A stretch of 64,000 nt of DNA, from positions 62,001 to 126,000 of the forward strand of contig SCKP01000001.1 in NCBI GenBank assembly GCA_004124405.1, read 5' to 3'. Made by a program: the position numbers and the translations under genes. Positions 53,800-56,250 of this stretch are shown piece after piece (within the stretch, counting starts at the first letter, position 1; each line of letters opens with the position of its first letter). Source of the stretch: Fidelibacterota bacterium. GTDB lineage: Bacteria; Fidelibacterota; Marinisomatia; SCGC-AAA003-L08; D37C17. The notes beneath the pieces were generated by a model. That model was given only the letters and a program-made list of their open reading frames with translations. It was not told the origin of the DNA and did not search any database.

Positions 53800-55446
53800 A
53801 TGGCTGAAAATAATTCCAGTTCTTTAATGGAAAAAGTAATCTCTTTGTCCAAACAGAGGGGATTTGTATTCCAAAGCAGTGAAATTTATGGAGGACTGAA
53901 ATCGGCTTATGATTATGGTCCGCTTGGTGTTGAACTGAAGCGTAATATTATGAATGAATGGTGGCGCTCAATGGTGCATGAGCGTGAAGATGTAATTGGT
54001 ATTGATGCCTCTATCATTATGCATACAAAAGTATGGCATGCTTCCGGGCATTTAGCGGGATTTTCAGACCCCTTAGTAGATTGTCTCATTAGTAAGGAAC
54101 GATTTAGAGCGGATAAAGCACCTAGACCAGTGGCAGGGGATGAACTACCCATTACCTGTGCCGATAAGGGTCAGGCAAAAAATTATGTAGAAGCCATACA
54201 AAAACGCTTCAATATTGAATTGAAGCGCAATGGAAAGACGCTGTACGGCATGAAAGTAATTGATGAAAATACCATGGGATTTTTCCCTGATGGTAGGGAC
54301 AAACCCACTGAAACTTTTCCATATCGGGGATATGTAAGTCCCACTTTTGGAAGCCCATTTCTCAGTGATGAGCGCCAATTCAATTTAATGTTCCGCACCC
54401 ACATTGGTCCAATTGATGTGTTGGGAGATATTACCTCTTATGTTGAAAAAAACAAAGAATTAGATGGGAAGGAACTGAGGACGGGCATAGAGGAAATAGT
54501 AAAAAAATCAGCAGTGTATCTCCGGCCTGAAACTGCCCAAGCCATGTTTGTCCAGTTTTTAAACTGTCAGCAATCCATGAGCATGAAAGTTCCTTTTGGC
54601 ATTGCTCAAATGGGAAAGAGTTTCAGAAATGAAGTTACGGTTGAGCATTTCATCTTTCGTTCCTGTGAGTTTGAACAAATGGAAATGGAATTTTTTGTAG
54701 AACCGGGCACCCAGAAAGAATGGTTGGACTACTGGCGTGATAAAAGAATGGAATGGTGGCAAAGCTTTGCAAATGATCCGAGCAAATTCAGATATCGGGC
54801 TCATGAAAAAGATGAACTGGCCCACTATGCCGATGCCTGCTATGATATTGAATATGAATACCCCTGGGGTTTTGATGAGCTTGAGGGTGTAGCCAGCCGC
54901 ACTGATTATGATTTGAAAAAACATGCTGAACATTCCGGCGCCAAGCTGAGTTATTTTGACCAGCAGAAACAAGACCCGGATACCGGTAAAAACGGCTGGC
55001 GATATACGCCCTATGTCATTGAACCCGCTGCTGGGGTTACTCGTGGACTATTGGTGTATCTCCTAGATGCATACCATGAAGAAACTGTGCCAAATGCAGA
55101 TGGAGAAGATAGTACCCGAGTGGTGATGAAACTTCATCCCAGACTGGCCCCAATCAAAGTTGCAGTACTACCTCTGGTAAAAAAAGAAGGCTTACCAGAA
55201 ATTGCCAGGGAAATGGTGAGCGGATTTTTTAAAGCTGGAATCAATGCCCGCTATGATGAACAGCATTCCATAGGCAAACGCTACCGCCGTCATGATGAGG
55301 CGGGCACGCCTTACTGTCTTACAATTGACGGCCAGACCAAGGAGGATGGTACAGTTACTATCCGGGACAGGGATACTATGAAACAAGAGCGGATACCTGT
55401 TAAAAAGGCAAAGGAAATAGTAAAGGAAAAATTAGCGCTGCATTAA
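53800..55446 (+). CDS. glyS: Glycyl-tRNA synthetase, dimeric (eukaryal/archaeal-like) type
   Basis: 548 residues, class II alpha2 type. The opening LMEKVISLSKQRGFVFQSSEIYGG and PLGVELKRNI, then YLRPETAQAMFVQF, SFRNEVT (motif 2), and YVIEPAAGVTRGLLVYLLDAY (motif 3) are all present. The C-terminal anticodon-binding domain starts about residue 445 (KVAVLPLVKKEGLP) and ends in RDRDTMKQERIPV. No separate GlyQ/GlyS pair is needed. The stop overlaps that of the opposite-strand peroxiredoxin gene (4 bases). Confidence 0.96.
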   Translation: MAENNSSSLMEKVISLSKQRGFVFQSSEIYGGLKSAYDYGPLGVELKRNIMNEWWRSMVHEREDVIGIDASIIMHTKVWHASGHLAGFSDPLVDCLISKERFRADKAPRPVAGDELPITCADKGQAKNYVEAIQKRFNIELKRNGKTLYGMKVIDENTMGFFPDGRDKPTETFPYRGYVSPTFGSPFLSDERQFNLMFRTHIGPIDVLGDITSYVEKNKELDGKELRTGIEEIVKKSAVYLRPETAQAMFVQFLNCQQSMSMKVPFGIAQMGKSFRNEVTVEHFIFRSCEFEQMEMEFFVEPGTQKEWLDYWRDKRMEWWQSFANDPSKFRYRAHEKDELAHYADACYDIEYEYPWGFDELEGVASRTDYDLKKHAEHSGAKLSYFDQQKQDPDTGKNGWRYTPYVIEPAAGVTRGLLVYLLDAYHEETVPNADGEDSTRVVMKLHPRLAPIKVAVLPLVKKEGLPEIAREMVSGFFKAGINARYDEQHSIGKRYRRHDEAGTPYCLTIDGQTKEDGTVTIRDRDTMKQERIPVKKAKEIVKEKLALH

Positions 55447-55913
55447 GTCTGGCTCAGATCGGCAAAATCGTTTAAAATATCCTTGGCGTGAGATTTCACA
55501 GAAACTTTTTCATACACATTTTCAACAAGACCCTTTTCATCAATAATGATGGTTACACGGGAAATTCCCATATATTCTCTGCCCAAAAATTTCTTTTTAC
55601 CCCACACACCGTAAGCTTTCAGCATATCACGACTTTCATCGCTTAATAGTGGATATGGAAACCCCTGTTTATCAGCAAACTTTTTCTGTTTAGCTGGGGA
55701 ATCTGCTGAACAACCAAGAATCTGAATGTTCTGATCTTCATAATTTTGGAATTCATCCCGGAATCCCTTGCCTTCAACTGTTCAGCCGGGAGTACTGGCT
55801 TTGGGATAAAACCATAGAACAACTTTTTCCCCTGTAAAATCTGATAATGACACAGAATTATTATCGGCATCTAATAGAGTAAAATCTGGCGCTTTATCTC
55901 CAACTTTTATCAT
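55443..55913 (-). CDS. bcp: Bcp-type peroxiredoxin, predicted selenoprotein (Sec44)
   Basis: 156 residues, counting an in-frame TGA at 55782-55784 as selenocysteine. The frame is open on both sides of the TGA and the protein is complete: KVGDKAPDFTLLD, WFYPKASTPG-U-TVEGKGFRDEF, LLSDESRDMLKAYGVWG. The TGA falls exactly on the peroxidatic Cys of the TPGCT motif. The usual resolving Cys five residues on is Lys; Cys68 (ILGCSADS) is the nearest candidate partner. GGAG sits six bases before the chosen ATG (55913); an ATG at 55925 is possible. It should reduce peroxides using thioredoxin or glutaredoxin. Confidence 0.9.
55748..55766 (-). promoter_or_regulatory. Candidate bacterial SECIS hairpin in bcp
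   Basis: On the - strand, 16-34 bases after the TGA, GGATTC pairs with GAATTCC (six pairs, one bulged T) around the six-base loop CGGGAT. Loop distance (22 bases from the TGA) and a G at the second loop position agree with known bacterial SECIS requirements for SelB binding. Confidence 0.55.
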
Positions 55914-55998
55914 TTGGATCTCCATTATTATTATAGTTTAGAATTACTTTTCACAATATTGAATGGTTTAAATTACCACCCATTATTAATGAGGAAAA
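55914..55998. promoter_or_regulatory. Shared divergent promoter region of two selenoprotein genes
   Basis: This 85-base AT-rich gap separates the bcp start (leftward) from the glutaredoxin start (rightward). Both ribosome sites lie at its edges (GGAG for bcp, GAGG for grx). Both promoters must lie in or at the edge of this gap; no clear operator was recognised. Confidence 0.5.
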
Positions 55999-56250
55999 AT
56001 GATTAAAATATATTCTACAAACTGGTGAGGGTCTTGCATTGCAGCAAAAAAAGTGCTGGATGACATGGGTTTGTCATACGAAGAAATCAACATTGAAGAA
56101 CAAGGGATCAGCCGAGAAGAACTGGTGAATATCACAGGCAACCATTCTGTACCTCAAATTGTAATTAATGGTGCATTTATCGGCGGATTTGATAAGCTGC
56201 TGCAATTAAATCAATCAGGAAAGTTGAAGGAATTACTTGCCAATAGCTGA
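55999..56250 (+). CDS. Glutaredoxin, predicted selenoprotein (Sec10, UxxC active site)
   Basis: 83 residues when the in-frame TGA at 56026-56028 is read as selenocysteine. The beginning MIKIYSTNW-U-GSC-IAAKKVLDD matches glutaredoxin with the first Cys of CxxC replaced by the TGA codon and the second Cys kept. Later VPQIVINGAFIGGFDKL provides the cis-Pro and the GGxD glutathione-binding motif. GAGG lies four bases before the ATG at 55999. Starting at the next ATG (56065) would remove the first strand and whole active site. It probably supports the neighbouring peroxiredoxin or reduces disulfides. Confidence 0.9.
56042..56058 (+). promoter_or_regulatory. Candidate SECIS-like hairpin in the glutaredoxin gene
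   Basis: CAGCA and TGCTG form a 5-bp stem with loop AAAAAAG, beginning 14 bases after the TGA. Distance fits bacterial SECIS elements, but the loop starts with A's rather than the preferred G. The element is therefore tentative, or a different fold is used. Confidence 0.35.

Follow-up and report, generated by a model that had tools for sequence, protein, structure and literature searches.

A probable selenocysteine glutaredoxin encoded divergently from a selenocysteine peroxiredoxin in marine Neomarinimicrobiota

The stretch of DNA analysed here (the window; 64,000 nucleotides) carries on its forward strand an 83-residue glutaredoxin gene at 55999-56250, stop counted, recognised by direct reading, by Pfam family PF00462, and by an AlphaFold2 model. 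The frame opens with an ATG at 55999, preceded by a GAGGA ribosome-binding site (55991-55995), codes as far as 56247, and ends in a TGA at 56248-56250. An earlier note on this DNA had placed a start with a ribosome site here and a TGA at codon 10, and direct reading agrees: the codon lies at 56026-56028 (forward strand), replaces the first Cys of the CxxC motif and, read as selenocysteine (Sec), opens a UxxC (UGSC) active site directly followed by helix 11-22 (N-terminus MIKIYSTNW-U-GSC...). The second Cys (codon 13, TGC, 56035-56037; invariant in 25 orthologues), the cis-Pro motif (VPQI, 51-54), and the GGxD motif (GGFD, 62-65) are retained, as that note had also read. By table-11 open reading frame calling the gene starts at GTG 56053 and yields 65 residues with the active site lost, which is what the note had foreseen of gene finders.

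With TGA taken as Cys, the 83-residue read-through protein covers the whole PF00462 model (E 5.9e-18; 65.3 bits, cut-off 22.9), and W9, residue 10, C13, A16, K17, V51-I54, and G62-G63 are invariant among 25 orthologues aligned on the same convention. An AlphaFold2 model of the Cys-substituted form, computed from an alignment of 24 relatives, displays the glutaredoxin order E-H-E-H-E-E-H-H with a mean pLDDT of 94.5. The predicted product is a complete member of the dithiol glutaredoxin family (PF00462), and the gene at 55999-56250 very probably encodes a Sec glutaredoxin, a degree of confidence that concerns the identity of the protein and excludes its role. Finer assignments are not reached: the best NCBIfam model, TIGR02181 (glutaredoxin 3), scores 78.7 bits, under its curated equivalog cut-off of 90, the Uxx_star model (NF041212) scores 39.2 bits, under its curated cut-off of 66, and no UGSC-family model matched in the NCBIfam profile comparison.

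Divergent from this gene, on the reverse strand at 55443-55925, lies a BCP/PrxQ-type peroxiredoxin (PF00578, E 1.8e-39; NCBIfam PRK09437, 172 bits, cut-off 140), whose family NCBIfam labels thioredoxin-dependent. It too bears an in-frame TGA (55782-55784, reverse strand), found by direct reading at the peroxidatic Cys of its AhpC-TSA/BCP domain (TPG-U-T), the arrangement that defines a Sec BCP/PrxQ protein; the second TGA-for-Cys claimed for the adjacent gene is confirmed. A peroxiredoxin is encoded divergently from the glutaredoxin, 65-144 nt away, at 20 of 30 glutaredoxin loci, and in all 20 the peroxidatic position is TGA; at the other 10 no peroxiredoxin lies within the fetched flank. In several families of the order the two genes remain divergent neighbours. 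The BCP-type peroxiredoxin is a predicted selenoprotein throughout the order, beyond the genome of the window. The glutaredoxins in these pairs are mostly of the Cys type. Since the peroxiredoxin TGA is present in every pair, Sec use is older in the peroxiredoxin, and the glutaredoxin of the genus converted later. An alignment of the 20 peroxiredoxins revealed no column with a second Cys common to all; Cys73 occurs only in the four congeners with a Sec glutaredoxin, which may reflect co-adaptation or shared ancestry. A scan for further TGA-bridged frames in the window, judged by eye, gave no other convincing selenoprotein.

The earlier note had made its reading depend on a Sec machinery, and all but one component was located in the host assembly, a 1.66-Mb Candidatus Neomarinimicrobiota metagenome-assembled genome (MAG) of 68 contigs that is 91.9% complete. 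It contains tRNA-Sec (67.6 bits, cut-off 47) and adjoining selA (539 bits) and selB (404 bits) genes; selA is found in five of five congeners, and of 28 genomes checked 24 carry a selA match above the cut-off. The missing component is selD, for which the assembly yielded only a 30.8-bit match that we read as PurM. A selD gene with an in-frame TGA is found in 21 of the 28 genomes checked, and the congeners G001, G003, and G005 have selD. In G005 the TGA-containing gene (C14:1-7270, L090) adjoins a cysteine-desulfurase-like gene, a possible supplier of selenium, and two flanking frames that we read as apaG and hemW. Used as a DNA query against the host assembly, this 3.9-kb stretch gave only two short matches, located elsewhere. 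As apaG and hemW are gone along with selD, and relatives have selD, a gap in the assembly is the simplest and the likely explanation; a true loss, which the lack of selD in the congeners G002 and G004 would also fit, is less probable. Genome-wide reassignment of TGA, in place of site-specific recoding, is extremely improbable: Cys (with Trp, the other candidate meaning) would be compatible with the alignment, but TGA terminates 10 of the 41 long frames of the window and the glutaredoxin gene itself, and the genome holds selA, selB, and tRNA-Sec.

Exchange between Sec and Cys was surveyed in 60 related genomes, the host (G000) included, by translating the glutaredoxin orthologue where a locus was given. 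Only Cys or TGA was found at position 10, as expected if the note's reading is right. The TGA is present in G000, G001, G002, and G005, which all belong to the genus of the window, the three congeners standing at 71-88% protein identity, and Cys is present in 26 other translated orthologues. From the remaining congeners, G003 and G004, no glutaredoxin orthologue was obtained, perhaps due to incomplete genomes. Judged by this gene, the nearest relatives with names are the Candidatus Neomarinimicrobiota MAGs NIOZ-UU87 (88% identity), MED829, and NAT62. A genome from another family of the class (G046) has its own in-frame TGA at position 10, in the motif WUPHC (G046:C78:8700-8997; the gene reaches the contig end), with no peroxiredoxin within the 4 kb fetched; its family-mates G042 and G052, and three other rows checked alongside it, have Cys. 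Among rows flagged for internal stops it is the only one with a true internal TGA, the flags of G013 and G017 arising from the terminal TGA and those of G054 and G057 from a TAA at the gene end, and G051 having Cys at position 10. A gene tree of the glutaredoxins, in which deep branches are weak, requires at least two changes between Sec and Cys, and the exchange has probably taken place more than once. The best explanation is that Sec took the place of an ancestral Cys in the genus of the window and, separately, in a second lineage of the class.

Among the TGA-bearing congeners, dS ranges from 0.9 to saturation and dN from 0.06 to 0.24; codons 1-9 differ by at most one amino acid, and downstream of the TGA dN is 0.07-0.27 versus a dS of 1.1 to saturation. 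These values point to purifying selection upstream and downstream of the codon. A truncated gene, in which the TGA is a real stop and translation from GTG 56053 gives a 65-residue product devoid of the active site, is the outcome of standard table-11 calling, but is very improbable: codons 1-9 and the ribosome site are conserved (GAGGA in G005 and G002, GAGTA in G001), the residues lost would be the invariant catalytic ones, and relatives carry a single full-length Cys frame. The TGA could likewise be a true nonsense codon in a pseudogene, or a sequencing or assembly error, and a single MAG would be insufficient to rule either out. However, the identical TGA recurs in the MAGs of three congeners, no other stop interrupts the glutaredoxin, selection past the TGA is strong, and a parallel TGA occurs in the different family represented by G046. 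A TGA maintained at such synonymous divergence, with low dN and a nearly fixed codon 1-9 segment, rules out error and decay, to which we attach hardly any weight; the note's judgement on this point is borne out.

A candidate bacterial SECIS hairpin, AUGACA-UGGGUU-UGUCAU, follows the in-frame TGA at 56060-56077 (forward strand), its loop beginning 37 nt past the UGA with G as the second loop letter. A distance of 37 nt lies at the far edge of the bacterial SECIS consensus. All six base pairs are intact in the four congeners (AUGACA-NGGNNN-UGUCAU), with one A-U to G-U change (G002) and zero double changes. Its energy is matched by 1.6-7.6% of synonymous recodings, which does not set it clearly apart from chance, some Cys homologues (G029 and G052) score equally, and the positive controls (peroxiredoxin and selD genes) score mostly similarly to the glutaredoxin and not uniformly better. 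Synonymous change in the Sec glutaredoxins is 0.33 in codons 11-28 versus 0.53 in codons 29-80, compared with 0.39 in both segments for Cys pairs, which fits a constrained SECIS, the comparisons being few and sharing branches. Assignment of this hairpin as the SECIS of the glutaredoxin is suggestive only. A long minimum-free-energy structure around the UGA of the host gene (z -1.8) is not common to the congeners, and the hairpin at 56060 is preferred. G046 has a stronger hairpin than that of the window, with a GGU loop, downstream of its UGA. For the peroxiredoxin, the candidate SECIS hairpin is GGGAUUC-CGGGAU-GAAUUCC (55748-55767, reverse strand). By a stem-loop criterion 18 of 20 relatives have it at the same position and with the same loop, CGGGAU or CGUGAU, a conservation to which the protein constraint GFRDEF contributes. 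An Rfam scan of the window returned zero matches, which the variability of bacterial SECIS hairpins would lead one to expect.

We propose that the UGA at codon 10 would be decoded as Sec through SelB, Sec-tRNA, and the hairpin just 3', giving a standard glutaredoxin fold in which UGSC forms the active site where helix 1 begins. The selenol would attack oxidised substrates, with resolution afterwards by C13 or by a low-molecular-weight thiol. As to such thiols, each of the 12 genomes checked has a member of PF04107, a glutamate-cysteine ligase-like family, and gshB (TIGR01380) was found in none of the 12. Another PF04107 match in the host genome (C34:11165-11563) is interrupted by a TGA and two TAG codons and may be a glutamate-cysteine ligase paralogue in decay; a pair of intact copies is present in several relatives.

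The best candidate substrate would be the divergently encoded one-Sec peroxiredoxin. Having no conserved resolving Cys, its oxidised Sec probably requires an outside thiol reductant, for which the neighbouring glutaredoxin is the natural candidate; the kept adjacency is only circumstantial as evidence for an enzyme-substrate pair. We infer that reduction of this partner is the likeliest role of the glutaredoxin, at about even odds. Only slightly less probable is a Sec glutaredoxin whose main partner lies elsewhere, a general dithiol reductant serving, for example, other Sec proteins or ribonucleotide reductase. The loci with no peroxiredoxin in the fetched flank, that of G046 among them, favour such a role, as do the NCBIfam description of the peroxiredoxin family and a published Clostridium Sec glutaredoxin whose partner, going by the title of the paper cited as ref. 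85 in PMC13188914, is a Sec methionine sulfoxide reductase; the maintenance of the divergent pairing across families argues against it. As most paired glutaredoxins are Cys-type, Sec is not required for their function. Within the reading of the peroxiredoxin as substrate, a specialised peroxide-reducing unit can be tentatively pictured, in which the glutaredoxin of the genus turned from Cys to Sec beside an already Sec-using peroxiredoxin and Cys73 was gained alongside, forming a seleno-seleno relay; we consider this rather unlikely.

True Sec glutaredoxins are rare. The Sargasso Sea set contained 10 UxxC sequences (PMC1088965), the Global Ocean Sampling survey 2 Sec glutaredoxins versus 1,952 Cys forms (PMC2398784), and Sec glutaredoxins are recorded in Geobacter sulfurreducens, Alkaliphilus metalliredigenes, and Moorella thermoacetica (PMC1794560). 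A Clostridium enzyme is the subject of refs. 85 and 109 as listed in PMC13188914, which include a biochemical study with Sec methionine sulfoxide reductase as substrate. A full-text literature search found no selenoprotein study of Neomarinimicrobiota. The five Sec glutaredoxins described here fall in two separate lineages of this marine phylum and have close Cys relatives; Sec and close Cys forms beside a fixed Sec neighbour offer a clean natural experiment on Sec-for-Cys replacement in a single enzyme, one that standard annotation obscures by shortening the gene and losing its active site.

Compared with known systems, the glutaredoxin of the window aligns end to end with Escherichia coli glutaredoxin 3 (PDB 1fov; E 1.4e-12), which differs in having Cys (CPYC) in place of Sec (UGSC). 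With the UGSC-containing selenoprotein and UXX-star families it has in common the sequence UGSC or a glutaredoxin-like Uxx motif, but by profile score it is a member of neither. The neighbouring peroxiredoxin is of the same kind as the known Sec BCP/PrxQ proteins (TxxU, COG1225; PMC1088965), from which it differs in its lack of a conserved resolving Cys and in the genus-specific Cys73. With the known Sec glutaredoxins the protein shares PF00462 membership, Sec as the first residue of the active site, a retained second Cys, and widespread Cys homologues, and it differs in its occurrence in Neomarinimicrobiota and its divergent pairing with a Sec peroxiredoxin. It is thus of a kind already described from a few other bacteria, which it extends to a further phylum.
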